A DNA stretch of 64,000 nt from positions 62,001-126,000 of the forward strand of contig NZ_AP018207.1 in assembly GCF_002367995.1 (NCBI RefSeq), given 5' to 3'. Source of the stretch: Calothrix brevissima NIES-22. Its GTDB lineage: Bacteria > Cyanobacteriota > Cyanobacteriia > Cyanobacteriales > Nostocaceae. The position numbers and the translations under genes were made by a program. The first letter of the stretch is position 1, and every line of letters starts with the position of its first letter. This document shows, piece after piece, positions 1,533 through 18,288 of the stretch. A model generated the notes under the pieces. The model saw nothing but the letters and a program-made list of their open reading frames with translations, had not been told where the DNA came from and searched no databases.

Positions 1533-4500
1533 ATGCCAAAAACTACTTACGGAGATGTAATCAAAAGGCGAGTTAAGCGTCTATTGGCGGCGTTGCTTGG
1601 TTTTGCGGCTGGGGAATTTGCGGAAGATAATTTGAATATTGAGTACGACTGGAAACAAGCAGATAGCCCTAACCCCAAGCTGACGATGAAAACAACTCTG
1701 GTAACTTTGGAGTTGTTGACGCAAAAAGACGAATATCCAGGTAAGTTAACTAAAACGCAAATCCGCGCCGCACTGCATTTACTCAAGGATTTTGTCAAAA
1801 TTCTGGAAGATAATCGGCTTCAAACTCAGGGTTCTGATGAGTGGCACTTTACATTAAAGCTATGGTCAAGGGATAAAGAAAAGAACCTGGAAAAGTTTGA
1901 TGAGGTATGGCAAAGCAACAAACCAAAGAAACCTCAACAGCTAGAAGCGAATTACCCTGAAGATGAGGATGTTGCTGTTGTACCCCAAACTCAACTGGCA
2001 ATATTTCAAGCGCCACCTTTACCTGCACACTTTGTTGAACGCCCAGAATACAGCGATGATTTAAAAACTCGCCTCCTCACAGAAGATAATCGCACTTTGG
2101 TAATTACGGCGATTCACGGTTTGGGTTCTGTGGGGAAATCGACTTTAGCCGCAGCTTTAGCAGTAGACGCAGAAATCCAAACTCGGTTTTGTGATGGGAT
2201 TTTGTGGGCTACATTAGGTCAACAGCCGGATGTGCTGTCTTTAGTTAGTGGCTGGGTGCAAGCATTAGGAGACTATAGCTTTAAACCTACCAGTGTGGAA
2301 GCAACTACTAATCATTTACGGACGCTGCTTTATGACAAAGCCGTGTTGCTGGTAGTGGATGATGCTTGGAATACACAAGATGCCCAAGCGTTTAATGTGG
2401 GTGGGGTGCGGTGTCAAGTTTTAGTCACAACTCGTGAAGCGGCAATTGCCGATGCTTTAGCAGCCAGCACCTACAGCCTGGATATCATGACACCAGATCA
2501 AGCTATGGCATTGCTGACGAAGAAATTAAGACGGGAAATTACAGGTGCAGAACTTCAGTCAGCCGAAAATTTAGCTCAAGGCGTTGGTTATCTCCCCCTA
2601 GCGTTGGAACTTGCAGCCGCCGAAGTGGCTAGTGGTACGAATTGGGATGAACTATTGGGAGATATTCGGCAAGAGGTAGCCAGATTAACCAGTTTTGACC
2701 GGCCGGAAGCCCAAGAAATTACCGATGAGGCAAGTTTAAAACGCTTGAGTTTAACGGCATCATTAAACTTAAGTGTCAAGAGAATACCTCAAGAAAAGCA
2801 GCATTTTGCTTGGTTGGGGGTGTTGCCGGAGGATGTGAACATTAATAAGATGATGGCGGCGACGCTGTGGGCAATGGATGAGCGTGATGCTGCCCAGATG
2901 TTGGAATATTTACGGAATAAAGCATTGCTATTAACAGGAGTACCCCTGGCTGATGGTACTCCTAGCTATCGATTACATGACTTATTCCATGATTTAGCTT
3001 GTAATTTGTTAACTGCTGCGCCACAGCCAAAGCAAATAGGAGATTTGCCAGGGTTAGGTTTAAATCTTGTTGATGCTCATGCTGCTTTTGTGGAGAAATA
3101 TCGGCAGAAAATCCAGAATAATTTATGGCATACCTTACCTGATGATGGTTATATTCATCAGCATTTAGTTTGGCATTTGGAAAAGGCGGGACTCTTTGAA
3201 GAGATTCACTCTTTATTGTGGGAAGAGTCGGCAACTGGCAATAATGGCTGGTTTGAAGTGCGGGAACAATTGGCACAAACAGGGGGTTACATCACAGATA
3301 TATCTCGTGCTTGGGAATTAGCTCAAAGGAATTGGACTGCATCAACATTAAGTTTGCAGTGTCGCTATGCTTTGATTACTACATCCCTGAATAGTTTGGC
3401 AGCTAATTTACCAAGAGATTTATTACTTGCTTTAGTCAAAAACAAGAAGTGGACTCCCGAACAAGGACTAGCTTACGCCCTGCAAAAACCAGAGCTAGAA
3501 GAGAAAATAGACGCGCTGGCAAAACTAGTCAATTATCTGCCACCAAATCTTCAACAATTAGCACTGCAAAAAGCACTTGCTGCTGCCAGGGCGATTCAGG
3601 ATGAGAATCATCGTGCCCAAGCCTTGAATGTCTTAGCAGACAAACTAAAAGAAGTATTACCAGAAGCACTTGCTGCTGCCAGGGCACTTGGGAATGAGAA
3701 TCATCGTGCCCAAGCCTTGAGTGCGTTAGCAGACAAACTGCCACCAGAGTTGTTAAAAGAAGCACTTGCTGCTGCCAGGACGATTCGAGATGAGAATTAT
3801 CGTGCCGATGCCTTGAGTGCGTTAGCAGACAAACTGCCGCCAGAGTTGTTAAAAGAAGCACTTGCTGCTGCCAGGACACTTGGGAATGAGTATGATCGTG
3901 CCCAAGTCTTGAGTGCGTTAGCAGATAAACTGCCACCAGAGTTGTTAAAAGAAGTATTTGCTGTTACCAGGGCGATTTGGGATGAGTATTATCGTGCCGA
4001 TGCCAGGAATGCCTTAGCAGATAAACTACCACCAGAGTTGTTGCTAGCAGCTCTTGCTGTTACCAGGGCAATTCGGGATGAGAATTATCGTGCCGATGCC
4101 TTGAGCGCCTTAGCAGATAAACTGCCACCAGAGTTGTTAAAAGAAGCCCTCACCGCCGCTAGGTTGATTCTGTATGAGGATTCTCTTACCCATGCCTTGA
4201 GTGCCTTAGCAGATAAACTGCCACCAGAGTTGTTGATAGAAGCCCTCACCGCCTCTAAGGTGGCTCGGAATGAGTATTATCGTACCAAAGCCTTGATTGC
4301 CTTAGCAGGCAAACTAAAAGAAGTATTACCAGAAGCCCTTGCTGTTGCCAGGGCGATTTGGGATGAGAATTATCGTGCCGATGCCTTGAGTGCCTTAGCA
4401 GATCAACTGCCACCAGAGTTGTTAAAAGAAGCCCTTGCTGTTGCCAGGGCGATTCGGGATGAGAATTATCGTGCCGATGCCTTGAGTGCCTTAGCAGATC

Positions 4501-6575
4501 AACTGCCACCAGATTTGTTGCCAGAAGCCCTTGCTGTTGCCAAGGCGATTCGGGATGAGAATTATCGTGCCGATGCCTTGAGTGCCTTAGCAGATCAACT
4601 GCCACCAGAGTTGTTAAAAGAAGCTGTTGCTGTTGCCAGGGCGATTGGGGATGAGTATTATCGTGTCTATGCCTTAAGTGCCTTAGCAGATCAACTGCCA
4701 GGAGTATTGCCAGAAGCCCTTGCTGTTGCCAGGGCGATTGGGAATGAGTATTATCGTGCCTATGCCTTGAGTGCCTTAGCAGATAAACTACCAGAAGTAT
4801 TACCAGAAGCCCTTGCTGTTGTCAGAGCGATTGGGAATGAGCGGAATCGTGCCGATGCTTTGAGTGCCTTAGCAGATAAACTGCCACCAGAGTTGTTAAA
4901 AGAAGCTGTTGCTGTTGCCAGGGCGATTGGGGATGAGTATTATCGTGCCTGTGCTTTGCGTGCGTTAGCAGACAACCTGCCACCAAAAGAAGCTCTTGCT
5001 ACTGCCAGGGCAATTGGGGATGAGTATTATCTTACCAAAGCCTTGAGTGCCTTAGCAGATCAACTGCCACCAGAGTTGTTAAAAGAAGCTCTTGCTGTTG
5101 CCAGGGCACTTGGGGATGAGAATGATCGTACCGATGCCTTTAATGCCTTAGCAGACAAACTGCCACCAGAGTTCTTGCCAGAAGCACTTGCTGCTGCCAG
5201 GGAAATTAGGGATGAGTATTATCTTACCAAAGCCTTGAGTGCCTTAGCAGACAAACTGCCACCAGAGTTGTTAAAAGAAGCTTTTGCTGCTGCTGTGGCG
5301 CTTGGGAATGAGCGCAATCGTGCCATAGCCTTGAGTGCCTTAGCAGACAAACTGCCACCAAATTTGTTGCCAGCAGCTTTTGCTGCTGCTGTGGCAATTG
5401 AGGATGAGTATTATCTTACCAAAGCCTTGAGAGCCTTAGCAGACAAACTGCCACCAAATTTGTTGCCAGCAGCTTTTGCTGCTGCCAGGGCGATTCAAAA
5501 TGAGTATGATCGTGCTCAGGTGTTGATGGCCTTAGCCCAGAAACTACCAGAGGTTTTGCCCGAAGCTATTGCTGCTGCCAGAGAGATTGAGGATGAAATG
5601 ACTCGTGCTGAAGTTTTGATACCTTTAGTAGAGAAACTACCGCCAGAACTACTGCCAGAAGCCCTGACTGCGGCTAGAGAAACTCAGTATAACTATTATC
5701 GTGCTGCGGTTTTGATTGCCTTAGCCCAAAGATTACCAGAACTTTTGCCCGAAGCTATTGCTACTACCGAGGCTATTGAGGATGAGTCTTGTCGTGGTCA
5801 TCGTTTAAGTGAATTAGCGGAGCAACTACCACCAGAATTATTACCAGAAGTCCTAGCGATCGCTCGGAAAATTCAGGATCATGACGAGCGCGCCCATCCT
5901 TTGATAGCTTTAGTAGAGAAACTACCAGAAGTTTTGCCAGAAGCCCTTGCTACGATTAGAGAAACTCAGCATGACTGTGATCGTGCTGCGGTTTTGATTG
6001 CCTTAGCCCAAAGACTACCAGAAGTTGTGCCAGCAGCTATTGCTGCTACTGAGGCGATTCACAATGAGTCTTCTCTTGTGCATAGTGAATTAGCCGAGAA
6101 ACTACCACCAGAATTATTACCAGAAGTCCTTACTGCTGCTAGAGAGATTCAGGATAACCGTTATCGTGCCCATGCCCTCAGTGCCTTAGCTCAAAAACTA
6201 CCACAAATTTTACCAGAAGCACTTGCTACAGCCAGGGCAATGGAGGATGATTATGATCGCGCCGATGCCCTCAGTGAGTTAGCCGACAAACTACCAGAGG
6301 TATTACCAGAAGCACTCGCGGCTGCTAGGGCAATTGATAATGAGTATTATCGCATCAATACCCTCCGTGCCTTAGCTTTCGGTCTGTCACAAATGCCATC
6401 CGCCATACTTTTTCCACTTTGGCAAGATACCCTTCATCATTTATCTGTTCGCACTCGCCCTAATTTGCTGCAGGATATCGAGGTATTGTTTCCAGTTATC
6501 TTTGCATTAGGTGGTGAAGTTGCAACGGCAGAGGTTTGGCGTGCAATTATGGATGTAGGGCGATGGTGGAAATAA
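1533..6575 (+). CDS. NB-ARC (STAND-class) ATPase with 30 C-terminal helical repeats
   Basis: 1680-residue signal-transduction ATPase. Residues 1-135 form an N-terminal domain often seen before NB-ARC in cyanobacteria (LTKTQIRAALHLLKDFVKIL); its function is unknown to me. The NB-ARC core follows: Walker A GLGSVGKST near residue 197, Walker B LLVVDDAW near 272, sensor-like VLVTTRE near 297, GLPLA-like GYLPLALEL near 353, and the MHD-like RLHDLFHDL near 479. After a linker region (about 500-680), 30 tandem repeats of 29-32 residues start at residue 681 (consensus ALAAARAIxDExYRADALSALADKLPPELLKE). They are helix-turn-helix in character, like TPR/HEAT solenoids. STAND proteins typically oligomerise when the repeat sensor binds a ligand; an immune or developmental switch role is inference. 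The start ATG has a GGA eight bases upstream. The repeats are so alike in DNA that copy number could vary or be misassembled. Confidence 0.9.
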   Translation: MPKTTYGDVIKRRVKRLLAALLGFAAGEFAEDNLNIEYDWKQADSPNPKLTMKTTLVTLELLTQKDEYPGKLTKTQIRAALHLLKDFVKILEDNRLQTQGSDEWHFTLKLWSRDKEKNLEKFDEVWQSNKPKKPQQLEANYPEDEDVAVVPQTQLAIFQAPPLPAHFVERPEYSDDLKTRLLTEDNRTLVITAIHGLGSVGKSTLAAALAVDAEIQTRFCDGILWATLGQQPDVLSLVSGWVQALGDYSFKPTSVEATTNHLRTLLYDKAVLLVVDDAWNTQDAQAFNVGGVRCQVLVTTREAAIADALAASTYSLDIMTPDQAMALLTKKLRREITGAELQSAENLAQGVGYLPLALELAAAEVASGTNWDELLGDIRQEVARLTSFDRPEAQEITDEASLKRLSLTASLNLSVKRIPQEKQHFAWLGVLPEDVNINKMMAATLWAMDERDAAQMLEYLRNKALLLTGVPLADGTPSYRLHDLFHDLACNLLTAAPQPKQIGDLPGLGLNLVDAHAAFVEKYRQKIQNNLWHTLPDDGYIHQHLVWHLEKAGLFEEIHSLLWEESATGNNGWFEVREQLAQTGGYITDISRAWELAQRNWTASTLSLQCRYALITTSLNSLAANLPRDLLLALVKNKKWTPEQGLAYALQKPELEEKIDALAKLVNYLPPNLQQLALQKALAAARAIQDENHRAQALNVLADKLKEVLPEALAAARALGNENHRAQALSALADKLPPELLKEALAAARTIRDENYRADALSALADKLPPELLKEALAAARTLGNEYDRAQVLSALADKLPPELLKEVFAVTRAIWDEYYRADARNALADKLPPELLLAALAVTRAIRDENYRADALSALADKLPPELLKEALTAARLILYEDSLTHALSALADKLPPELLIEALTASKVARNEYYRTKALIALAGKLKEVLPEALAVARAIWDENYRADALSALADQLPPELLKEALAVARAIRDENYRADALSALADQLPPDLLPEALAVAKAIRDENYRADALSALADQLPPELLKEAVAVARAIGDEYYRVYALSALADQLPGVLPEALAVARAIGNEYYRAYALSALADKLPEVLPEALAVVRAIGNERNRADALSALADKLPPELLKEAVAVARAIGDEYYRACALRALADNLPPKEALATARAIGDEYYLTKALSALADQLPPELLKEALAVARALGDENDRTDAFNALADKLPPEFLPEALAAAREIRDEYYLTKALSALADKLPPELLKEAFAAAVALGNERNRAIALSALADKLPPNLLPAAFAAAVAIEDEYYLTKALRALADKLPPNLLPAAFAAARAIQNEYDRAQVLMALAQKLPEVLPEAIAAAREIEDEMTRAEVLIPLVEKLPPELLPEALTAARETQYNYYRAAVLIALAQRLPELLPEAIATTEAIEDESCRGHRLSELAEQLPPELLPEVLAIARKIQDHDERAHPLIALVEKLPEVLPEALATIRETQHDCDRAAVLIALAQRLPEVVPAAIAATEAIHNESSLVHSELAEKLPPELLPEVLTAAREIQDNRYRAHALSALAQKLPQILPEALATARAMEDDYDRADALSELADKLPEVLPEALAAARAIDNEYYRINTLRALAFGLSQMPSAILFPLWQDTLHHLSVRTRPNLLQDIEVLFPVIFALGGEVATAEVWRAIMDVGRWWK
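3573..6395 (+). repeat. 30 tandem coding repeats (87-96 bp units) in the NB-ARC gene
   Basis: Units are in frame and 29-32 codons long. The central ones (about 3700-5500) are nearly identical at DNA level, for example three consecutive units between 4330 and 4620. The last eight or so (after about 5520) have diverged. Length differences come from PPELLKE versus EVLPE ends; one unit ends early (LPPKE). The pattern suggests recent expansion or gene conversion in the centre of the array. Confidence 0.95.
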
Positions 6576-6648: not shown

Positions 6649-9087
6649 TTATCCCAGATTTGGCGTCATTACTTTATCTCCAAAGCTTTGACTGCCTTGC
6701 ATATACTCCTCTAAACTAAACGAATCTACTTGAATCGCATCATTACGGGCAAATTCCGCCTCACAGATAAGTTCAACATCTTTCTCGCTAATTACCCCAG
6801 CTTTCAGGGCTGTGGAAATTAACTCATCGGGTTTTAGCTGTGCTAGTTTCCCTGTATGAGTAGCATTTTTGATAGTTTTGACGATTGGTTCGGCTTGGGA
6901 TAACAAGGTAAAAGCTTTTTCCAAACGTCCTAATGCTTCATCGCTGGTGCGGGGAATATGAATACCTGCGGTGAGGCGATCGCGTATTTCTCCAGGAGTT
7001 TGTAATTTATGCGCAATTTCGCTACCCAGTTTGTCATCAGGTAAGGAACCAATCGGATTAAGTCGCCACCACCAAGTCAAGAAATTACCTAAAACTGGTA
7101 CAAATAAATTCTGGAAAATCCCCTCAAACGCTTCCTGCATCTGTGCTAAAGCATATTGCATCGCCCAATGCACAAAAGGTAAATCTTCCGCTTTTCGCCC
7201 TTCGGCTTCAAAACGGCGCAGGGTAGCAGTTGCTAAATACATCCAGGTGAGAATATCCGCAAACCTTCCTGTGAGTTTCTCCCGTCGCTTTAAGGTTCCA
7301 CCGAGGGAGAACATCGCAATATCAGTTAGTAAGGCAAAGGTAGCCGCAGCCCATTGTAATTTGCGATAATATTTAGCTGTCGCACCTGACACTGGTGAAG
7401 CTGCTAAATTCCCACGGGTAAGATAGAGAAGTTTGGCGCGGAAACCATTACGCACCGTTAACCCTAAATGATGCCAGAAAGCTTGATCAAAAGCAGTCAC
7501 ATCTGATTGACTTAGGGCTGTAATTTCCTGATAAACATAAGGATGACAGCGAATCGCCCCTTGTCCAAAAATCATCAAGGTACGGGTGAGAATATTTGCA
7601 CCTTCGACGGTAATTGATATCGGCGTTGCTGTATAAATATTTGCTAATAAATTTCTGGGGCCGCGACAAATTCCCGCACCGCCCAGAATATCCATACCAT
7701 CGTTGATGATTTTGCGGGAGATTTCCGTCAAACTGTATTTGGCGATCGCCGAAATTACCGCTGGTTGTTCGCCTTTATCTACTGCACCACAGGTATAAGT
7801 TCGCGCCGCCTCCATTAAGTAGGTTAAACCGCCAATTCTCGCTAAAGGTTCTTCTACTCCTTCAAACCGACCAATCGATAAACCAAATTGTTGCCGTACC
7901 ACAGCATGAGCGCTGGTAACTCTCGCTACTAACTTCGCCACACCCGTACAACTAGCCGGGAAGCTAATTCCCCTACCTGCGGCTAGGCTTTGCATCAACA
8001 TTTTCCAGCCATTACCAGCCTGTTCCACACCGCCGATAATTTGGTCAACAGGAATAATAACGTTATGTCCTTCTGTAGGCGAATTGTAAAAAGGCACACC
8101 CATTGGGTCATGTCGTCTACCCATAATTACGCCCGGTGTGTCGGTGGGGATTAAAACGCAGGTAATGCCAACTTCTTTACCTTTACCTAAGTAATTTTCC
8201 GGGTCGCGTAATTTAAAAGCTAGTCCTAAGAGAGTTGCGATCGCAGCTAAGGTAATATAGCGCTTCTGCCAATTCAACCGCAGATAAAGCTTCCCATCCT
8301 CACCTCTAAACACCGTTCCTTCTGACTTAATACTAGCCGCATCTGACCCCGCAGTCGGTTCTGTCAGCGCAAAACAAGGAATTTCCTCACCCCTAGCGAG
8401 ACGGGGTAGGTAATAATTTTTTTGTTCCTCTGTTCCGTAGCGGAGTAATAATTTTGCAGGGCCTAATGAGTTAGTTACGCCCACAGTTGCAACGTGAGTA
8501 AAAGAACGCGATGCTAATTTAGTCATCACATTACTGTAGGCGAAATTAGAAAATCCCAACCCGCCATACTCTTGGGGAATCATCATTCCTAAAAAGCGTT
8601 CTTGTTTGAGATAATCCCAAACTTCCGGCGGTAAATCCTTGCGGCGATAAATTTCCCAATCACTTACCATCCGACAAACTTGTTCAACGGGGCCATCAAG
8701 AAACGCTTGCAATTCTGGTGTAATTATAGGGTATGGTTCTTGATTAATTCTGTGAAAATTTGGTTTACCTGAGAAGAATTCCCCATCTACCCACACATTA
8801 CCCGCTTCAATAGCTGCGCGTTCGGTATCAGAGATTTTGGGTAATAAGTTAAAGGCTTTAATGGCTTTGATTAACGGTGATGTGATGATATTTTGGCGGA
8901 TAATTGGGATATTGAAGATGAGGGCGATCGCACCAAAAATTACCCAAGTCCAAATAGGGGCGTGAACAGTTACTAGTAATGTTGCAAAATAAAGCGACCA
9001 AACCCACAAAGGAACGCCGATATAACCAAGCAATAGTAATAGGAAAATTAGCGTTGAAACTATTATGATTGGATGAATAAGGTTCAT
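6649..9087 (-). CDS. fadE: acyl-CoA dehydrogenase, long FadE type
   Basis: Catalyses the first, FAD-dependent step of fatty-acid beta-oxidation (acyl-CoA to trans-2-enoyl-CoA). The 812-residue length and architecture match enterobacterial FadE, not the ~380-residue ordinary acyl-CoA dehydrogenases. There is an N-terminal membrane region (residues 1-65, two or three helices), then EAGNVWVDGEFFSGKPN and FLDGPVEQVCRMVSDW. The substrate/FAD region has PCFALTEPTAGSDAASI and KRYITLAAIATLLGLAFKL, followed by IVEGANILTR-like and IFGQGAIRCHPYV. The chosen ATG (9087) has GGGTGA upstream; an alternative at 9102 adds five residues. It is last in the operon and converges on the NB-ARC gene. Inference: an inner or thylakoid membrane-associated enzyme passing electrons to ETF or directly to quinone. 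Confidence 0.93.
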   Translation of the reverse strand: MNLIHPIIIVSTLIFLLLLLGYIGVPLWVWSLYFATLLVTVHAPIWTWVIFGAIALIFNIPIIRQNIITSPLIKAIKAFNLLPKISDTERAAIEAGNVWVDGEFFSGKPNFHRINQEPYPIITPELQAFLDGPVEQVCRMVSDWEIYRRKDLPPEVWDYLKQERFLGMMIPQEYGGLGFSNFAYSNVMTKLASRSFTHVATVGVTNSLGPAKLLLRYGTEEQKNYYLPRLARGEEIPCFALTEPTAGSDAASIKSEGTVFRGEDGKLYLRLNWQKRYITLAAIATLLGLAFKLRDPENYLGKGKEVGITCVLIPTDTPGVIMGRRHDPMGVPFYNSPTEGHNVIIPVDQIIGGVEQAGNGWKMLMQSLAAGRGISFPASCTGVAKLVARVTSAHAVVRQQFGLSIGRFEGVEEPLARIGGLTYLMEAARTYTCGAVDKGEQPAVISAIAKYSLTEISRKIINDGMDILGGAGICRGPRNLLANIYTATPISITVEGANILTRTLMIFGQGAIRCHPYVYQEITALSQSDVTAFDQAFWHHLGLTVRNGFRAKLLYLTRGNLAASPVSGATAKYYRKLQWAAATFALLTDIAMFSLGGTLKRREKLTGRFADILTWMYLATATLRRFEAEGRKAEDLPFVHWAMQYALAQMQEAFEGIFQNLFVPVLGNFLTWWWRLNPIGSLPDDKLGSEIAHKLQTPGEIRDRLTAGIHIPRTSDEALGRLEKAFTLLSQAEPIVKTIKNATHTGKLAQLKPDELISTALKAGVISEKDVELICEAEFARNDAIQVDSFSLEEYMQGSQSFGDKVMTPNLG

Positions 9088-9119
9088 TATGTTTTCACCC
9101 ATGTGAATAAAGGTTTTAA

Positions 9120-9233
9120 AATCTCACGCAAAGGCGCAAAGGCGCAAAGAAGAAAGCAAGAGTGTTGAAGGCAGAGTGTGAAAGATAAAAATTTATTCCT
9201 TCTGCCTTCTGCCCTCTGCCTCCTGCCTTCTTC
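9120..9233. repeat. intercistronic repeats between fadA and fadE
   Basis: The gap holds the cgcaaaggcgcaaaggcgcaaag motif (9126-9150), seen again at 52014-52037, and a ctgccttctgccctctgcc block (9200-9232). Both are common intergenic repeats of this genome; the same gap type recurs between every pair of fad genes here. Confidence 0.6.
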
Positions 9234-10415
9234 CTAAATCATCAAATTCTCAAACACCGCCGCAGCACCCATTCCACCGCCTACACACATCGTCACCAAA
9301 CCATAACGGACACTACGCCGTTTCATTTCATGGAATAAGGTAGCTGTGAGTTTCGCACCAGTACAACCGAGGGGATGTCCCAAAGCGATCGCACCACCGT
9401 TAACATTAACAATCTCTTCGTTAAGTCCGAGTTTGCGAATTACAGCCAAACTTTGAGCTGCAAAGGCTTCGTTGAGTTCGATTAAGCCGATATCATTTAA
9501 GGTAAGACCAACTTGTTTTAAAACTTTGGGAACAGCTTCCACAGGGCCGATACCCATCACATCTGGGGCGACACCTGCAACTGCATAGCCTAACATTTTA
9601 CCCATTGGATGGACATCGAGCATCCGCACCATGCGATCGCTCATCACGACTGTAGCAGCTGCACCATCGGACATTTGCGATGAATTACCGGCTGTCACCG
9701 CACCACCCATGCGAAATACAGGTTGCAATTTCATCAAGGCTTCCATACTGGTATCGGGACGCGGCCCTTCATCTACCGTAAATACCTTTTCTATTGGGCG
9801 CGGAGTTCCTTCAATATAAAGTACTTCCTGCACTGTTAGCGGTACAGTTTCCTCTGCAAACCGTCCTTGTCTAATAGCAACCACAGCCTTTTGGTGGGAA
9901 CGCAGCGCGAAAGCATCCTGTTCTTGACGAGAGATTTCGTAATGCTGCATGACATTTTCGGCGGTAATTCCCATCGTGCAGTACACCTTAGGCGTATCTA
10001 TCATCATATTTGGGTTAGGGGCTAAATAATGCCCGCCCATCGGAATCAAACTCATAGATTCCGTACCACCAGCAACAATGACTTCTGCATGTCCTGCCAT
10101 AATTGCTTGAGATGCGATCGCAATACTTTGCAATCCCGAAGCACAGAAGCGATTTACAGTCATTCCGGCGACAGAATCAGGTAAACCTGCACGTTGGGCG
10201 ATTAACCGTCCAATATTAAATCCCTGTTCTGCTTCCGGAAAAGCACAACCCATAATGACATCATCAATATATACAGGTTCTAAATCTTTAACTCGTTCAA
10301 TTGCTGCTTTCACAACCACCGCACCCATATCATCAGGACGCATATTATGTAGAGTTCCTCGTGGTGCTTTTCCTACAGGCGTGCGCACGCTACTCACTAT
10401 ATAGGCTTCTTTCAT
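9234..10415 (-). CDS. fadA: acetyl-CoA acyltransferase (3-ketoacyl-CoA thiolase)
   Basis: Last step of the beta-oxidation cycle: CoA-dependent cleavage of 3-ketoacyl-CoA. The protein is 393 residues, the normal thiolase length, when started at the ATG at 10415. That ATG follows a strong GGTGGGAG site; an upstream TTG/ATG would add 21 unconserved residues. The nucleophilic cysteine is Cys91 ([12 protein letters not shown]), and the [22 protein letters not shown] and [13 protein letters not shown] signatures carry the remaining catalytic His and Cys. It lies between fadN and fadE on the same strand. PhaA-type biosynthetic thiolases are related, but this context (fadN, fadE, acyl-CoA synthetase) argues for degradation. 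Confidence 0.93.
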
Positions 10416-10449
10416 AAATAACTCCCACCTATTTTTAAATGTGTATTTA

Positions 10450-10565
10450 ATGAACCGCCAAGCCGCCAAGAGCGCCAAGAATTTGTAGAATGTGCATAAG
10501 TCCTAAATAATTCAGAGAATTCTCTGTTTCTTCTCTTGGCGTACTTGGCGTACTTGGCGGTTCAT
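10450..10565. repeat. foldback repeat between fadN and fadA
   Basis: The left arm ATGAACCGCCAAG followed by CCGCCAAGAGCGCCAAG (10450-10480) is the inverse of the right arm (10534-10565), built from (C)TTGGCG-TAC units ending in GGCGGTTCAT. About 50 bases separate the arms. A transcript of the operon could form a long hairpin here. Related TTGGCG blocks lie at 13104-13133 and 57638-57664. Confidence 0.65.
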
Positions 10566-10618
10566 AAAAAAAAGTAATTCTCACAACTCACATAGGACTA
10601 CTATTACTCTCTCTACCC

Positions 10619-12988
10619 TTAATTCCTCAGAGGCTTCTTAGTTTTCAAAGTATGTGCAAATCTTTCTTGGGTTTTTGGTTGCTGCAACAATGGTAAAAAG
10701 GATTCTCTTTCCAATTTCGATAAATAATCCTCATCAACCAACGCAGGCGCAGTCAGTTCCCCACCAGTCATGACATACGCCAAGCGACTTGCTAAATAAT
10801 GGTCATATTCAGAAATATAACCGCCCTGCTGCATCACATAGGCCGTATGTTCCAACATCGCCCGCGCCTGACGCCCTAACACCATGATGGCGTTACGTTC
10901 TGCTGGTGGTGTGTAACCAACGTGATCTAAACACAGCACTTCCTCTTTTGCCACAGATAAAAGTCTGTCGGAATTCATCACAATCTTGGTTGTGGGCGAA
11001 AGGTAGCCTAATTCTTGTCCTTCATCAGCGCTACTGGAAACCTTCGCCATGCCAATCGTTTCAAACACTTTCCTCAGGAATGGTTGAATATCTTGCGGTG
11101 ATTCACTAGCAGCTTTGTCATTAGCCCAGGTAACCATCCGCATAATCCCACCAGCGCCAGGAATTAAACCTACGCTGAGTTCTACTAATCCGATGTAAGT
11201 TTCTGCTGCTGCTACTACATGGGGACAAGCTAAAACTAATTCACAACCTCCGCCTAGAACTCGCCCTACAATCGCTGCAACAATTGGTTTGGGGAAATAT
11301 TTAATCCGTTGCAGTAATGCTTGAAATTTGACGATTAAATCAGCAATCCCTTTACCGTTATCTGTTTGCGCCAACATGGCCATTTCTGCCAAATTCGCGC
11401 CACCAGAGAAGTTTGCACTTTCATTTCCAATCACTAAACCCCGGTAATCGCTGTTCTCGATAATATCTAAGACTTGAGCTAATCCTTCTACGACTTTTAA
11501 AGTTAGGGTATGGCCTTTGGAATGAAATTCATATAAAACGACTCCATCACCCAAGTCTAACAAAGAAGCTTCTGAATTTTCCCACAAGATATTTTTGGTA
11601 TCTTCTTTGATAGCTGGTATCAGAATTTCGTCTGTTGGCGCTTTTGGTTGTTCGCTAATACAAACAGCACAAGCATCAACTACTTTTTGTTCAGCCCAGG
11701 ATAGTCGGTCTTTACGATAGAAACTATGCACGCCATTATTATGCATCTTTTCTACCCACTCTGGCACAGATATATCACTAGCTTTCATGTCTGCTAAGAC
11801 AGTCTCAAAGCCGAGGATATCCCAAATTTCAAAGGGGCCGAGTTCCCAACCGAAACCCCAACGAATCGCCCTGTCTATATCTGCGGGTTTATCAGCTATT
11901 TCGGGAATGCGACGGGCGCTGTAACCTAAGATTTCTAAGGTGGATTGACGGAAGAATTTACCAGCACGACCAGGATCGTGGTAAAGATGAAGTAAGCGAT
12001 CGCCTAAATCGCTAATTTTCCCAATCGTCTCAATATCCCCTAAATCTAACGGTTTCGCTGCTTCATAAGCTAAAGTCGTCGGATTAATCGAGAGAATTTC
12101 CTTACTTTGCTTTTTGTAAAATCCTTGACCTGTTTTTGCACCTAACGTCCCAGTTTCTACGAGTTTCTTCATTAACGCTGGTACTCGCAAAACCTCCCGG
12201 CTTTCATCGTCAGGAATAGCTGGGTAAAGGTTCGTAGCCACATACATTAATGTATCCAAACCTACCAAGTCAGCCGTGCGGAATGTCGCTGATTTTGGTC
12301 GTCCGGCGATGACTCCTGTTAAAGTATCAATTTCTTCAATTGTATAACCTTGCTCACTCACACCCTTAATCCCCAACATCGTTGCATACATCCCGATGCG
12401 GTTGGCAATAAAGTTGGGTGTATCTTTAGCTACTACTACACCTTTACCCAGGTGTATCCTCCCAAACCATTGCATTCTTGCGAGGATTTGCGTATCAGTA
12501 TCAGGTGTAGGAATTAACTCTAATAATTTGAGATAGCGAGGAGGATTAAAAAAGTGAGTACCTAAAAACCGCTTCCGAAAAGCTTCCGAACGCCCTTGAG
12601 CAATTTGATGAATGGGTAAGCCACTAGTATTAGTAGACACCACCGCATCATCTCGAATAGTACTTTCGATTCGCGCCATCAAATCTTGTTTAATAGCGAG
12701 ATTTTCTACAACAACTTCAATTACCCAATCAACATTAGCAATGCGGTGAAAATGTTCGTCAAAATTGCCCAAAATTATGCGTCGCGCTGTTTTTTCTGTA
12801 AATAAAATTGGCGGAGATTGCTTGAGGGCTTTTTTAAAAGCTGTTTCCACAACCTCATTTTTATTGTCACCTTTAGCCGCAATATCTAATAATTGAACTG
12901 TTAAACCAGCATTCGCTAAATGGGCGGCGATTTGAGTTCCCATCACCCCCGCACCCAATACTGCGGCTGTTCGGAACGGCTTAAACAT
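10619..12988 (-). CDS. fadN: 3-hydroxyacyl-CoA dehydrogenase / enoyl-CoA hydratase (FadN type)
   Basis: Bifunctional enzyme for the middle two steps of beta-oxidation. Domain order is dehydrogenase first, hydratase last, as in the Bacillus-type FadN and opposite to the FadB type. The NAD-binding Rossmann motif is VLGAGVMGTQIAAHLANAG (residues 10-28), and the dehydrogenase motif GTHFFNPPRYLKLLELIP follows. The C-terminal crotonase-like part (about 480-690) has SANFSGGANLAEM and AIVGRVLGGGCELVLAC as oxyanion-hole and substrate segments, and VELSVGLIPGAGG at the active-site helix. At 789 residues it is the FadN length. The ATG at 12988 follows GGAAGGGTGA. It is second in the operon, after the acyl-CoA synthetase. 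Confidence 0.93.
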   Translation of the reverse strand: MFKPFRTAAVLGAGVMGTQIAAHLANAGLTVQLLDIAAKGDNKNEVVETAFKKALKQSPPILFTEKTARRIILGNFDEHFHRIANVDWVIEVVVENLAIKQDLMARIESTIRDDAVVSTNTSGLPIHQIAQGRSEAFRKRFLGTHFFNPPRYLKLLELIPTPDTDTQILARMQWFGRIHLGKGVVVAKDTPNFIANRIGMYATMLGIKGVSEQGYTIEEIDTLTGVIAGRPKSATFRTADLVGLDTLMYVATNLYPAIPDDESREVLRVPALMKKLVETGTLGAKTGQGFYKKQSKEILSINPTTLAYEAAKPLDLGDIETIGKISDLGDRLLHLYHDPGRAGKFFRQSTLEILGYSARRIPEIADKPADIDRAIRWGFGWELGPFEIWDILGFETVLADMKASDISVPEWVEKMHNNGVHSFYRKDRLSWAEQKVVDACAVCISEQPKAPTDEILIPAIKEDTKNILWENSEASLLDLGDGVVLYEFHSKGHTLTLKVVEGLAQVLDIIENSDYRGLVIGNESANFSGGANLAEMAMLAQTDNGKGIADLIVKFQALLQRIKYFPKPIVAAIVGRVLGGGCELVLACPHVVAAAETYIGLVELSVGLIPGAGGIMRMVTWANDKAASESPQDIQPFLRKVFETIGMAKVSSSADEGQELGYLSPTTKIVMNSDRLLSVAKEEVLCLDHVGYTPPAERNAIMVLGRQARAMLEHTAYVMQQGGYISEYDHYLASRLAYVMTGGELTAPALVDEDYLSKLERESFLPLLQQPKTQERFAHTLKTKKPLRN

Positions 12989-13103
12989 AAATCACCCTTC
13001 CTTCTTCGATTTTAGATTTTAGATTTTAGATTTTGGATTGGATTAATTACCTAACTCTCAAAAAATCACAGTACTCAGCCAAAAAATACTGATAAATTTC
13101 TTC

Positions 13104-13133
13104 CTTGGCGTACTTGGCGCACTTGGCGGTTCA
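13104..13133. repeat. TTGGCG repeat block
   Basis: CTTGGCGTACTTGGCGCACTTGGCGGTTCAT-type block in the gap between the synthetase gene and fadN. It is the same family as the right arm of the foldback at 10450-10565 and the block at 57638-57664. Confidence 0.6.
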
Positions 13134-13161
13134 TTTCTTAATACCCTTCCACATCTAAGTA

Positions 13162-15312
13162 TTACGAATTAAGAGACTGCGCAAACGTAGGACAAGAAAA
13201 AGTCTGATTAGCTGGACATAATTCATTTACTTGTTCTATTGTGACATTTCCTGCCTTCACTGCCCTCTTTTCTTCATAGATCGCATTAATTTCTTGAGCA
13301 AACACCTCTAAAATTTTGACCCTATTTACCTCCTGAGTTGATGTCAACATTCCATTCTCAACAGTCAGGTTAAAATTAATCAGATGGAATCGTTTTACAT
13401 TCGACCAATGCGGTAAATGACAATTCGCTTCATCGACTAACGCTTGATATAAAGCGGTAATACAAGGATGTTGCAGCAACTCTTCAGTTGATACATCAAT
13501 TCCACTAGCTATAGCCTGCTGACGCAAGTTTTCTAAATCTGGAAAAATCAGCATCGAACAAAACTTACAATCAGCGCCTACAGTCACAACATGGGCTATT
13601 AACGGAGATTTTTCCAGCTTGCTTTCTATCGGTTGAGGTGTGACATACTTCCCTGTAGAAAGTTTAAATCGGCTTTTCTTTAAACCAGTAATCTTCAGAA
13701 AACCGTCAGGGGTAAATTCTCCTAAATCGCCTGTATGTAACCAACCTTGAACATCAATTAATTGCTGAGTTGCTGTTGAATTGTTGTAATAACCTTGGGT
13801 ATTATAGGGACTTTTCGTAAGAATTTCCCCATCTTCAGCAAGAGTAACTTCTACACCTGCAATGGGTACGCCTACGGTTCCAGCACGATTAAATTGACTG
13901 CGATTACAACTGACTGCTGAACTAGTTTCTGTTAAACCATAGCCTTGTAAAATTTTTATTCCCGCAGCCGCAAATAAATTTACAATCTCTGGTTTTAAAG
14001 CTGCACCTCCGCTCAGTAGATATTTAATATTCCCACCAAAAACAGCACGCCATTGGGAAAATATAAAACTATCTGCCACTTTCAACATCAAAGCATCTTG
14101 ATGTGGTAATTTTTTGCCTAATTCATATTTTTGGGCTAATTTTACTGCCCATTTCATCATCGATTGGGATATAGGAAGATAAAGTTGTCTGGTGGAAATT
14201 GCGTTACGAGAAGACAGTAAATGCGTTTTTAAGTTTCTCCCCGTCGTAGATAATTTTAAGGTAGCTTCTCGCAGGTTAGAAAGTGCTGTTTTCGCCTCCC
14301 TAGTAGTTGGAAACCTAAAGGGTAAGAGGGTAACGCGCTGATGTGGTAAGTTTTCTTTTACTTTTTTACTCTGTTTTGAGTTTTTCTCTCCTGCTTCTAT
14401 CAGCTTGGTATAAACTTTTTCTAACAGCAAAGGAACGGTAGCAAAGATTGTCGGCTTAACTTCTTTCAGGTGTTTTAATACCTTATTGGCATTACTGAAG
14501 TAAATACTGTGCCCATAGTTAATATGACCGTAAACAAAAACACGGGCTAAAACATGAGTTAATGGTAAAAAAGAAAGAATTACCTCCTGGGAACCAAATG
14601 CTAAGTCGGGAATTCCTGTAAACATTGCGAGTGCATTTGCAGAGAGATTTTCATGGGTAAGCATTACCCCTTGCGGTTCTCCTGTAATTCCCGGAATGTA
14701 AATAATAGTTGCTAAGTCATCAGCGATGATTTTGGCTTTGAGTTCTTGTACTCTCAATTCCGAATTTTTATCTCTACCTTGAGAGCGAATTTCATTTAAT
14801 GAAAATACTTTCATCCCTATTTTATGTTGTTGATGCCAATCATCAGGCACATCAGCAACTATGATTATCTGGAGATGAGTTGTATTTTCTAAATAAGGCA
14901 GAATTTGAGACAATAATTCTAAATTAGAAATTATCAGCGCCTTTGCTTCTGTGTGCTGCAAAATGAAAATAATGTGTTCAATTGTTTGGGTTAAATCAAT
15001 TGGCACATTTACCAAACCTGTGAGTAAAGAACCCATGTCAGCAATGCAAAATTTGACATCGCTGTGCATGAGTAAAGCAATACAATCGCCTTTTTCTAGT
15101 TCCAAATCCAGCAAGCCTAACGCCAATTCCGCCGCAGCCGTGCGCAATTCGTGGTTAGATAAAGGTTGCCAGCCTGTATCTGTAAACTGGTTGAAAGCGC
15201 TGGGGTTAAAAGTGCGATCGCACGCTTCATCTAATAAAGAAAGCAAAGTTCGCCCTAAAACTACCTCTCCAGAATTAGGAGGCGCTCTATAAGTCTTATT
15301 TGTAGATAACAT
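13162..15312 (-). CDS. long-chain acyl-CoA synthetase (AMP-binding), FadD-like
   Basis: Activates fatty acids to acyl-CoA (via acyl-AMP), supplying substrate to the fad genes downstream. It is 716 residues long. Adenylation motifs: the P-loop region YIPGITGEPQGVMLTH (205-220), GYGLTETSSAVSCN, GWLHTGDLGEFTPDGFLKITG, and the C-terminal lysine motif STGKYVTPQPIESKL. The P-loop is degenerate: the usual TSGTTGxPKG has Ser to Pro, Thr to Ile and Lys to Gln changes. It resembles the cyanobacterial/plant long-chain synthetase group (also acyl-ACP synthetases, Aas), so acyl-ACP formation is an alternative. The start ATG lacks a clear ribosome site. First gene of the operon, with about 580 bp of non-coding DNA upstream. 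Confidence 0.88.
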   Translation of the reverse strand: MLSTNKTYRAPPNSGEVVLGRTLLSLLDEACDRTFNPSAFNQFTDTGWQPLSNHELRTAAAELALGLLDLELEKGDCIALLMHSDVKFCIADMGSLLTGLVNVPIDLTQTIEHIIFILQHTEAKALIISNLELLSQILPYLENTTHLQIIIVADVPDDWHQQHKIGMKVFSLNEIRSQGRDKNSELRVQELKAKIIADDLATIIYIPGITGEPQGVMLTHENLSANALAMFTGIPDLAFGSQEVILSFLPLTHVLARVFVYGHINYGHSIYFSNANKVLKHLKEVKPTIFATVPLLLEKVYTKLIEAGEKNSKQSKKVKENLPHQRVTLLPFRFPTTREAKTALSNLREATLKLSTTGRNLKTHLLSSRNAISTRQLYLPISQSMMKWAVKLAQKYELGKKLPHQDALMLKVADSFIFSQWRAVFGGNIKYLLSGGAALKPEIVNLFAAAGIKILQGYGLTETSSAVSCNRSQFNRAGTVGVPIAGVEVTLAEDGEILTKSPYNTQGYYNNSTATQQLIDVQGWLHTGDLGEFTPDGFLKITGLKKSRFKLSTGKYVTPQPIESKLEKSPLIAHVVTVGADCKFCSMLIFPDLENLRQQAIASGIDVSTEELLQHPCITALYQALVDEANCHLPHWSNVKRFHLINFNLTVENGMLTSTQEVNRVKILEVFAQEINAIYEEKRAVKAGNVTIEQVNELCPANQTFSCPTFAQSLNS

Positions 15313-15893
15313 TTGATTACAGAAGAATTTATCACTCTTCCCCTCGTTATCAGTTATCAGATGTTTTTATTAGCTATTTTCTGACAACTATGCTTTTGTT
15401 AATAAACAGGCTTAAATATCAAGCTTGATGAATAACTCATAACTCCAAAACTCCAGCGTTACTCTGTCACTGAGCCTCCGCTTGAGCTTAAATTATCAGC
15501 ACTCATCCTCACATACTCCAAGTACAAAATTTCATTAATTAGTAGTGAATCCTCTGTGTACCTTTGCGCTTACCTTTGCGCTCCTTTGCGTTTAAATTTC
15601 CACCCTCAATTAGCCAAAATCATATGCAAAGCTATACTCATCTCTTGTCTTACTTCAGCCAAATAAATGCCAGACGAGGTAATGTCTCAGATGCCGACTT
15701 TTGATACCTAACGCCTGAAAACTGCTAAATTTAACCTTTCAATTTGATTCTATTAAAGACAGAATTATCGGTTTTTAAGACATCAGGCTATTACAGAGCC
15801 ATTGCCTTAAACTCTACTTTTCTGTACTAATAATAATGTAGAACATGCTGGGGATCAACGACAACTTTTGTATCTTTTTCGCAAAGAAACACA
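15313..15893. other. non-coding stretch upstream of the fad operon
   Basis: No ORF worth reporting. It must hold the promoter of the synthetase-fadNAE operon (minus strand). It contains a short repeat of the cctttgcgctt/acctttgcgctcctttgcg kind (15560-15592), an intergenic repeat type of this genome. No operator could be assigned by eye. Confidence 0.5.
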
Positions 15894-16793
15894 TTACCTG
15901 GTGAAATTTTCCGGCTGCAAAGTAGGTATTTTTATCATACATCTAGCAGATGGATTATCTATTTCTACTTCTAAATGCTTTTCTAGCCAATTCACCAAAT
16001 CTCCTAGTACTTTGTGGTAATTAACCTCTAGGTGAAAGTCGTGATAGTCCCCAGGATATTCATAGCATTCTTTATCTGGTAAGCTGACTTTTTGGAAAAA
16101 CGCCATGCTACCTTCTGGGGGTGTAATGGAATCAGCGCTGCTATACATAATTAACAAAGGAACTTGTAATTCGCTAGCATGGCTTTCTACCCATTTTTCT
16201 GTTGCAAAAAACTCTGCCGCTAGTCTAGCAGTGCCATATTCGTGGCGTAATGGATCTTGAGTATGAATTACATTTGCACTGTGTAACTTCGAGTTTTTAT
16301 CCAGACTCACTTTCAGGCTAAAGTTAGGCCAGACTTGAGAAAGCATTCGCCCTAATGCAACTTGCAGCACCGGGAGGTTAACTTTTCCCAAAGCTGGTGC
16401 TGTTAAGACTAGCCCTTGCAAACTTTGGGGAAAGCGTAAAGCATAGTCTACTGCGATCGCAGCTCCTAAACTATGACCCCACAAAAAACACGCACAACTC
16501 GGCCCTCGTTCCTGAATTCTGGTTAAAAAGGTATGTAAATCTTCTCGTAACTCAGCCCAGGAATTAATATGTCCTCGTTGTCCAGGCGATCGCCCATGTC
16601 CCCGCAAATCAAAAGCGTAGGTAGCATAACCTCGCGGGAGTAAATGTTGTACTGCATCGACAAATAAGCCGCTATGTGCCCCAAATCCGTGGACTATGGC
16701 AATAATCGCCCGTAATTCTCCCTCTGGCTGCCAACTTTGGTAATAAAGGTTAAGCCCTCCTGCTCCCGTGAAGGTGCCTTCGATATGTGTCAT
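15894..16793 (-). CDS. alpha/beta hydrolase, monoacylglycerol lipase-like
   Basis: Serine hydrolase that probably releases free fatty acids from monoacylglycerol or a related ester. The 299-residue protein starts at the ATG at 16793 (GGTAGG upstream). It has the oxyanion-region HGFGAHS (35-41), FDLRGHGRSPGQRGH, the nucleophile elbow GHSLGAA with Ser108, Asp221 in YSSADSITPP, and His251 in PGDYHDFHLE. The motif set, including RGHGRSPGQRG, is that of bacterial and eukaryotic monoglyceride lipases. There is no signal peptide, so it acts in the cytoplasm. It lies upstream of the beta-oxidation operon on the same strand but 580 bp away, so it is probably a separate transcript. It would fit a lipid-to-acetyl-CoA route (inference). 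Confidence 0.85.
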   Translation of the reverse strand: MTHIEGTFTGAGGLNLYYQSWQPEGELRAIIAIVHGFGAHSGLFVDAVQHLLPRGYATYAFDLRGHGRSPGQRGHINSWAELREDLHTFLTRIQERGPSCACFLWGHSLGAAIAVDYALRFPQSLQGLVLTAPALGKVNLPVLQVALGRMLSQVWPNFSLKVSLDKNSKLHSANVIHTQDPLRHEYGTARLAAEFFATEKWVESHASELQVPLLIMYSSADSITPPEGSMAFFQKVSLPDKECYEYPGDYHDFHLEVNYHKVLGDLVNWLEKHLEVEIDNPSARCMIKIPTLQPENFTR

Positions 16794-16867
16794 TGCTGTA
16801 CCTACCAAATGCGTTTTTCTATGTTTTCAAAATCTATGTCTCAAGACGCAATTGGAGATTATTAGCT

Positions 16868-17685: not shown

Positions 17686-18288
17686 TTAGGCTTTAGCTAA
17701 ATTTTCCGCAGCAAAGTCCCAGTTGACTAATTGCTCAAGGTAGTTTTTGATAAATGCAGGACGAGCATTTCTGTAGTCGATGTAGTAGGCATGTTCCCAA
17801 ACATCTAAGGTGAGAATTGCTTTTTGTCCATAGGCTAGAGGGTTCTCTGCGTTTGGTGTTTTGATTACTTTCAAAGTACCACCATCATCAATCAACCAAG
17901 CCCATCCACTACCAAACTGAGTTGCAGCAGCGTTGGAGAACTCTTCTGCAAATTTCTCGAAGCTACCAAAATCTTTATCGATTTTATCGGCTAGTGCGCC
18001 GGAAGGTTGACCGCCACCTGCTGGTTTGAGTGAGTTCCAAAAGAAGGTGTGGTTCCAAACTTGCGCTGCGTTATTAAAAATTCCTACTTTAGAAGCATCT
18101 CTAAAAGTGGCTTTGATTACTTCTTCTAGGGATTTATCCGCAAGTTCTGTACCGTCGGTAAGCTTATTGAGGTTATCTACATAAGCTTTGTGGTGTTTGC
18201 CATAGTGATACTCGAAAGTCTCAGCTTTCATGCCATACGGCTCTAGTGCATTAAAGTCGTAGGGTAGGGGGGGCTGTTGAAATGCCAT
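17686..18288 (-). CDS. sodB: iron superoxide dismutase
   Basis: Converts superoxide to hydrogen peroxide and oxygen in the cytosol, guarding photosynthetic and nitrogen-fixing metabolism. The 200 residues align end to end with FeSOD. Metal ligands: His28 (YHYGKHH), His80 (QVWNHTFFW), Asp162 and His166 (DVWEHAYYIDYRN). FGSGWAWL and the AAQ/ATQFGSGW region point to the Fe rather than the Mn subtype. There is no signal peptide. The ATG follows GAGAGGATTT. It is monocistronic, with its own hairpin terminator at 17598-17637 and a long upstream gap. Confidence 0.97.
   Translation of the reverse strand: MAFQQPPLPYDFNALEPYGMKAETFEYHYGKHHKAYVDNLNKLTDGTELADKSLEEVIKATFRDASKVGIFNNAAQVWNHTFFWNSLKPAGGGQPSGALADKIDKDFGSFEKFAEEFSNAAATQFGSGWAWLIDDGGTLKVIKTPNAENPLAYGQKAILTLDVWEHAYYIDYRNARPAFIKNYLEQLVNWDFAAENLAKA

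Follow-up and report, generated by a model that had tools for sequence, protein, structure and literature searches.

Whether a cyanobacterium can degrade fatty acids through beta-oxidation is the question raised by a group of genes in Calothrix brevissima NIES-22. The cyanobacterial pathway has been called incomplete (PMC11546870), and the absence of beta-oxidation has also been stated in print for Synechocystis. The initial annotation of the present locus claimed that four same-strand genes together cover the whole route from free fatty acid to acetyl-CoA in a group of organisms described as lacking the pathway, and that the pathway looks functional. This description of cyanobacteria is still in print, but beta-oxidation genes had already been reported in 2019 for Chlorogloeopsis fritschii PCC 9212 (Ho and Bryant 2019, PMC6424891). 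In the present study, the window, i.e. the whole stretch of 64,000 nucleotides that was analyzed (bases 62001-126000 within an 8.53 Mb contig), was found to contain four long minus-strand open reading frames at exactly the coordinates below (the listed FadA frame extending to 10478), and the family matches confirmed an ACS-like ligase, FadN, FadA and FadE, transcribed in this order. A fifth, conserved gene, which lies outside the segment initially annotated, is likely the first gene of the cluster:

6649-9102, minus strand: FadE, acyl-CoA dehydrogenase with ACDH_C (NF007000, 1058.7 bits, cut-off 600; PF09317, PF02770, PF00441)
9234-10415, minus strand: FadA, 3-ketoacyl-CoA thiolase, 393 aa (TIGR01930, PF00108, PF02803)
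10619-12988, minus strand: FadN, 3-hydroxyacyl-CoA dehydrogenase and enoyl-CoA hydratase, 789 aa (PF02737, PF00725, PF00378)
13162-15312, minus strand: ACS-like (ANL) protein, 716 aa (PF00501, 193 bits; PF23562)
15894-16808, minus strand: alpha/beta hydrolase, Hydrolase_4, lipase or monoacylglycerol-lipase-like (PF12146, 211.8 bits)

First, the cluster is chromosomal, its reading frames are open, and the assembly (9.26 Mb) has a completeness of 100 and a contamination of 0.4. The GC content of 6649-16808 is 42.3%, compared with 41.4% in the whole window, and the HIP1 density is 1.08 per kb, compared with 1.13 per kb in the rest. Because both values match the surroundings, the worry raised initially, that a contaminating contig of different composition and HIP1 density had been read, falls. 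Assembly contamination, for which nothing was found in favour and against which the location inside the 8.53 Mb contig and the close relatives of the cluster in Tolypothrix, Nostoc and Fischerella also speak, can practically be dismissed. The intergenic gaps in the cluster range from 73 to 581 bases, and co-transcription is putative; scans for promoters (28 versus 25.8 in shuffles) and terminators (9 versus 10.7) revealed nothing above the shuffled sequences. A common short repeated unit, CGCCAAGTACGCCAAG-like, was spotted by reading in the intergenic stretches 10479-10618 and 12989-13161. On the plus strand at 1533-6575, adjoining the cluster, a 1680-aa protein with matches to Effector-associated domain 4, NB-ARC and APAF1_C, and a weak IS4-transposase-N match near the C-terminus, looks from these domains like a STAND-type conflict protein. 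The window also contains a plus-strand frame at 45-767 with a Rubrerythrin (ferritin-like) match, which presumably resembles the end of Mg-protoporphyrin cyclase.

Second, the three core enzymes retain the catalytic residues that were examined. FadA scores 459.3 bits with TIGR01930 (cut-off 240.55) and is the sole long Thiolase_N match in the genome among the matches listed, the nine others covering 38 to 111 of 260 positions. The ATG at 10415 is the more likely FadA start, since 41 of the 45 relatives have a methionine aligned at this position, and seven have an in-frame stop just upstream of it. FadN reaches 660.4 bits with the Staph_FadB model, below the "exception" cut-off of 999. The thiolase residues Cys112, His368 and Cys398 are kept in 46/46 rows, and FadE Glu500 in 43 of 45, the two remaining rows being cut off; in FadN, the nucleotide-loop glycines (GxGxxG), His145, Glu583 and Glu603 are each present in 48/49 rows and the HAD Glu157 in 45/46, the exceptions being gaps in the cut loci L068 and L069. 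We take FadE Glu500 to be the catalytic glutamate, and FadN His145 and Glu157 (dehydrogenase), Glu583 and Glu603 (hydratase) and the thiolase Cys, His and Cys to be the catalytic residues. Thus, the signatures that had been quoted as intact (the thiolase Cys, the FadN NAD loop and oxyanion segments, and FadE) are indeed present and, moreover, conserved. Among the solved structures listed as nearest to FadE by sequence, i.e. ACAD9 and VLCAD, none covers the C-terminal domain past residue 631; the predicted structure of FadE is poor (mean pLDDT 46.8), and no conclusion was drawn from this model.

Third, the cluster is patchily distributed, and its order is conserved. The comparison comprised 48 loci, of which 20 (19 from a scan of named genome contigs and one Acaryochloris plasmid) formed a smaller set and 28 were further loci. 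All four genes are found on one strand and in identical order in 42 of them; four of the six exceptions (L023, L048, L068 and L069) are incomplete clusters cut by contig ends, and at L045 FadE is elsewhere in the genome (L070). At L070 (2989-5439, genome G174), FadE stands alone, approximately 2.7 Mb from fadN and fadA. Of the 291 genomes searched in the order, 26 have a FadN match with an identity of 54% or more, and 17 further genomes have a match of only about 30% identity, over the dehydrogenase part. FadE (PF09317) was detected in 25 of the 291 genomes, every one of which belongs to the 26; the single member of the 26 with FadN but no FadE is G193. At the lone FadN locus of this genome (L065), FadN is 53% identical, and no homologues of the ligase, FadA or FadE were found in the 15.5 kb fetched. 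In the phylum sample, strong FadN matches were observed in 7 of 292 genomes, those of G327 and G331 being only 42-45% identical. Taken together, the protein families, the gene order, the co-occurrence of FadN with FadE and the conserved catalytic residues support the prediction of a beta-oxidation cluster in a cyanobacterium.

Phylogenetic analysis, which had been suggested as a check and was run for FadN among the four proteins, placed the cyanobacterial sequences in an old monophyletic clade. The sister of this clade (support 100/99) is L025, from a metagenome-assembled genome of the Great Salt Lake labelled Bacteroidetes by its record; since several outgroup and deep rows are on long branches, this placement is likely but not certain. 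A contig labelled Gracilibacteria (L017) clusters with Hydrococcus within the cyanobacterial part of the tree and is therefore probably mis-binned. In Acaryochloris sp. "Moss Beach", the cluster is on the 277 kb plasmid pMB02 (L044, 9920-14386), and its ligase and FadN are each split over two reading frames, so that this copy may be decaying or mis-sequenced. These frame breaks, the occurrence in only 26/291 genomes and an approximately twofold faster evolution of the ligase might be expected of a functionless passenger that was acquired recently or is decaying. This explanation is nevertheless very improbable, as each of the five genes has a dN/dS well under 1, the order and joint presence of the genes are conserved, and the cyanobacterial FadN clade is old and monophyletic. 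The dN/dS values, obtained pairwise by a simple counting method with six near relatives (all dS up to 0.93, farther relatives being saturated), are 0.05-0.10 for FadN, FadA and FadE and 0.15-0.20 for the ligase, which indicates purifying selection on the latter as well.

The first step of the pathway is where the claim of completeness becomes doubtful. The residues of the ligase were scored on one MAFFT alignment of 46 distinct cyanobacterial orthologs and seven comparison ligases, i.e. the L025 ligase and six references (the Aas of the same genome, two further ligases of the same genome and three from plasmids), with indices corresponding to positions described in PMC6122825. The following features were observed in the window protein:

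14668-14700, minus strand: altered P-loop, residues 205-215, YIPGITGEPQG (YTSGTTGKPKG in the Aas of the same genome)
14524-14526, minus strand: His263, gained (46/46 orthologs, 0/7 comparison ligases)
14509-14511, minus strand: His268, gained (46/46 orthologs, 0/7 comparison ligases)
13681-13683, minus strand: Leu544, replacing the linker arginine (index 639 of PMC6122825; residue table, 46 orthologs)
13330-13332, minus strand: Glu661, replacing the A10 lysine (index 740; residue table, 46 orthologs)

The L025 ligase and all references keep Thr322, Gly324, Lys330, Glu490, Gly573, Asp624, Arg639 and Lys740. In the cyanobacterial orthologs, Arg639 is absent throughout (0/46, compared with L025 and 6/6 references), Ser/Thr323 is likewise found in none of the 46 and Thr322 in a single one; the P-loop Lys330 is present in 15 and Lys740 (A10) in 11, the window protein and 34 others being without the latter. 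Gly573 is kept in 36/46, and Asp624 (46/46) and Glu490 (42/46) are both present in the window protein. The P-loop of this protein departs from the pattern [TS]SG[TS]TGxPKG, and the P-loop positions vary even among close relatives. In an HMMER alignment with carboxylic acid reductase, too, Leu544 and Glu661 stand opposite Arg and Lys. Both Arg639 and Lys740 belong to a set of five residues reported as invariant in 374 adenylate-forming sequences (PMC6122825); thus, the window ligase is without two of the five. In FadD13, replacement of the Lys740 equivalent by Ala abolished 96.3% of activity, and replacement of the Lys330 equivalent by Ala resulted in a 63.5% loss together with a raised Km for ATP (PMC2793005). 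The predicted structure of the ligase is also poor (mean pLDDT 56.7), and no conclusion was drawn from it. A C-terminal CPx[FY]AxSL-like tail was observed on 31 of the 46 orthologs.

Lost motif residues alone are no proof of lost ligase activity, and an ordinary complete beta-oxidation, in which ATP-dependent acyl-CoA formation by the protein persists in spite of the changed motifs, deserves consideration. Wherever a locus extends far enough to include the ligase together with FadN (46 loci), the ligase gene adjoins fadN. The protein is under purifying selection, its A5, A7 and KLSTGKY segments are conserved, and the A10 and P-loop lysines persist in 11/46 and 15/46, respectively. Despite these observations, the complete loss of Arg639 and Ser/Thr323, the loss of Thr322 in 45/46, the variability of the P-loop among close relatives and the missing A10 lysine in the window protein and 34 orthologs render this explanation possible but rather unlikely. 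From the residues lost, we infer that the ACS-like protein has probably ceased to act as an acyl-CoA ligase of the ordinary, ATP-dependent type. Hence, of the claim that every step from free fatty acid onward is encoded, the part concerning FadE, FadN and FadA is supported, and the part concerning the first step is not supported, because the ligase is without residues that its family keeps; for the same reason, the claim that the pathway looks functional is unsupported at this step, although the residues of the three core enzymes are kept.

Concerning the origin of the altered ligase, the simplest history suggested by the sequences is a single event near the base of the cyanobacterial clade, because the L025 ligase, whose FadN is the sister of that clade, has standard motifs: YTSGTTGRPKG, DRKKD and TLKVKR are kept, and the two histidines of the cyanobacterial orthologs are missing. 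The L025 locus contains a ligase, fadN, a thiolase and a fadE cut by the contig end; a frame labelled TetR-like by reading precedes its ligase, and its neighbours include frames unlike the cyanobacterial ones. The idea that the ligase is a mere duplicate of Aas was rejected, the window protein being 29% identical to the Aas of its own genome and 47% to the L025 ligase; Aas belongs to the same ANL superfamily, but its motifs are intact, and judged by sequence it is not a recent parent of the window ligase. No description of the altered ligase was found in the literature searched, whose coverage leaves out most subscription journals. A speculative suggestion, to which we attach little probability, is that the enzyme has been re-purposed to transfer acyl groups to CoA without ATP-dependent activation, via the invariant His263 and His268. 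ATP activation would then have been given up when the module settled in cyanobacteria, the acyl source perhaps being acyl-ACP (Aas) or a hydrolase-bound acyl group; this elaboration is equally doubtful.

An alternative supply of acyl-CoA in trans is a live possibility in Calothrix brevissima NIES-22 on the basis of its gene content. The genome encodes an intact Aas-like protein (one Aas copy, 658 aa, L071) as well as a PRK08162 ligase that is likewise intact and scores above the cut-off (702.7 bits, L042). As a general source of acyl-CoA, the stand-alone PRK08162 ligase was rejected, since just 4 of 22 selected operon genomes reach the cut-off.

The second departure from a conventional pathway concerns the electrons released by FadE. 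ETF (PF01012) was found in none of the 291 genomes of the order, whereas 10 of 14 control genomes were positive, and no match was obtained in three operon genomes of other orders (G421, G335 and G415). The search is able to find ETF in the phylum, because G331, a distant member with 9% contamination, was matched by both subunits. ETF-quinone oxidoreductase (PF05187) is absent from the own genome, a weak test given that just 3 of 14 controls were positive. Given that ETF was not detected in any of the 291 genomes, the electrons of FadE probably go to a different acceptor, which further qualifies the claim of a functional pathway to the extent that the usual ETF is not the acceptor. In E. coli, the acceptor of FadE is stated to be unsettled and direct quinone reduction to be possible, and the parts of these two sources that treat the question contain no demonstration of direct quinone reduction for any FadE (PMC11495604, PMC9329746). 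The N-terminus of FadE (residues 1-75) is strongly hydrophobic by hydropathy.

The fadNAE-type clusters of Bacillota (the Priestia megaterium plasmid L087 and Paenibacillus L088) have a like order of fadN, thiolase and acyl-CoA dehydrogenase, and their FadN is 42-44% identical to that of the window; however, they encode a short ETF-type dehydrogenase (approximately 594 aa) in contrast to the window FadE with ACDH_C, and in Paenibacillus ETF genes are located beside the cluster. The window FadE resembles the E. coli FadE/PRK09463 family, with 47-48% identity over 93% of its length and ACDH_C in both, although E. coli is described as having ETF homologues, whereas none were found in the cyanobacterial genomes searched.

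The hydrolase provides a possible link to lipid turnover. A Hydrolase_4 homologue is located upstream of the ligase, on the strand of the cluster, in 22 of 48 loci and just 3' of FadE in five, thus adjoining the cluster in 27/48; no homologue was found in the remaining 21 stretches, some of which are short, and in the smaller set 17 of 20 loci have one. The occurrence of the gene in two positions relative to the operon makes a functional link more likely than shared neighbourhood ancestry. The iron superoxide dismutase encoded upstream of the hydrolase (17686-18288, minus strand) was rejected as a partner, as no homologue was found at the 20 related loci searched.

The fate of acetyl-CoA bears on a further explanation, that, instead of bulk degradation, the cluster carries out a specialised task, e.g. 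the shortening of chains or the remodelling of lipids, or runs in the synthetic direction. Canonical isocitrate lyase in the own genome is represented by a partial match only (positions 150-246 of 526), so that a net synthesis of sugar from acetyl-CoA through the usual glyoxylate shunt would not be possible, and the genome is rich in PKS/NRPS-like frames. PF00463 matches were observed in 77 of 291 genomes; among the matches listed, only G244, which has no FadN, covers both halves of the profile, and the others are partial. The shunt may nevertheless proceed through a non-standard enzyme, which is kept in play because C. fritschii is said to use the glyoxylate shunt (PMC11546870). The FadE-type dehydrogenase and the thiolase match degradative families, the neighbour is lipase-like, and the far-red induction described below was interpreted as degradation by its authors (PMC6424891); a specialised or synthetic role thus appears improbable.

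In C. fritschii PCC 9212, exposure to far-red light for 48 h raised the expression of four consecutive beta-oxidation genes (UYEDRAFT_05553 to 05556) approximately 10-fold; in rfpBC mutants, the increase was 15- to 70-fold (PMC6424891). We infer that these genes are the present cluster from their count, consecutiveness and species, the likeness being one of description and not of sequence; the cluster of the window is found in C. fritschii PCC 6912, a sister strain (L013). The relevant passages of PMC6424891 do not treat ligase motifs, ETF or the hydrolase, unlike the present analysis. In PCC 6912, fatty-acid degradation genes were also up-regulated, and the authors preferred recycling through Aas, citing the seeming absence of canonical beta-oxidation in cyanobacteria (PMC10830646); the results obtained herein argue for reopening that interpretation. 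The existence of the operon is thus already in print; what the present study adds, as far as the literature searched shows, is how widely the genes occur, the neighbouring hydrolase, the lack of ETF matches and the changes in the ligase.

Considering these results together, we regard it as on balance probable, from sequence comparison, that the locus is a genuine, selected and patchily distributed degradation module in which the electrons of FadE do not go to ETF and the ligase is no longer ordinary. In such a module, the lipase-like hydrolase would release acyl chains, and acyl-CoA would be supplied by another ligase or by an altered reaction of the ACS-like protein, because the latter has lost the arginine, the P-loop and (here) the lysine for adenylation. 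As their families and conserved residues suggest, FadE would then desaturate the acyl-CoA, FadN would hydrate and subsequently oxidise the product, and FadA would split off acetyl-CoA. The most likely route for the electrons would be straight from a membrane-associated FadE into the quinone pool, or in part to oxygen. As the up-regulation of the Chlorogloeopsis genes in far-red light suggests, the module likely serves to regain carbon and reductant from the lipids of membranes under light or energy stress.

The textbook-level statement that cyanobacteria lack beta-oxidation would need a lineage-specific correction, which is relevant to strains engineered for fatty acid secretion. A lineage with FadE in which no ETF was found also offers a natural test of where FadE electrons go, the question raised in E. 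coli. Moreover, a ligase that is under selection although it is without some residues kept elsewhere in its superfamily, and that has two new invariant histidines, points to a novel reaction or partner; if the re-purposing suggested above were true, it would join acyl-ACP recycling, as found in cyanobacteria, with a beta-oxidation that is based on CoA and independent of ETF.
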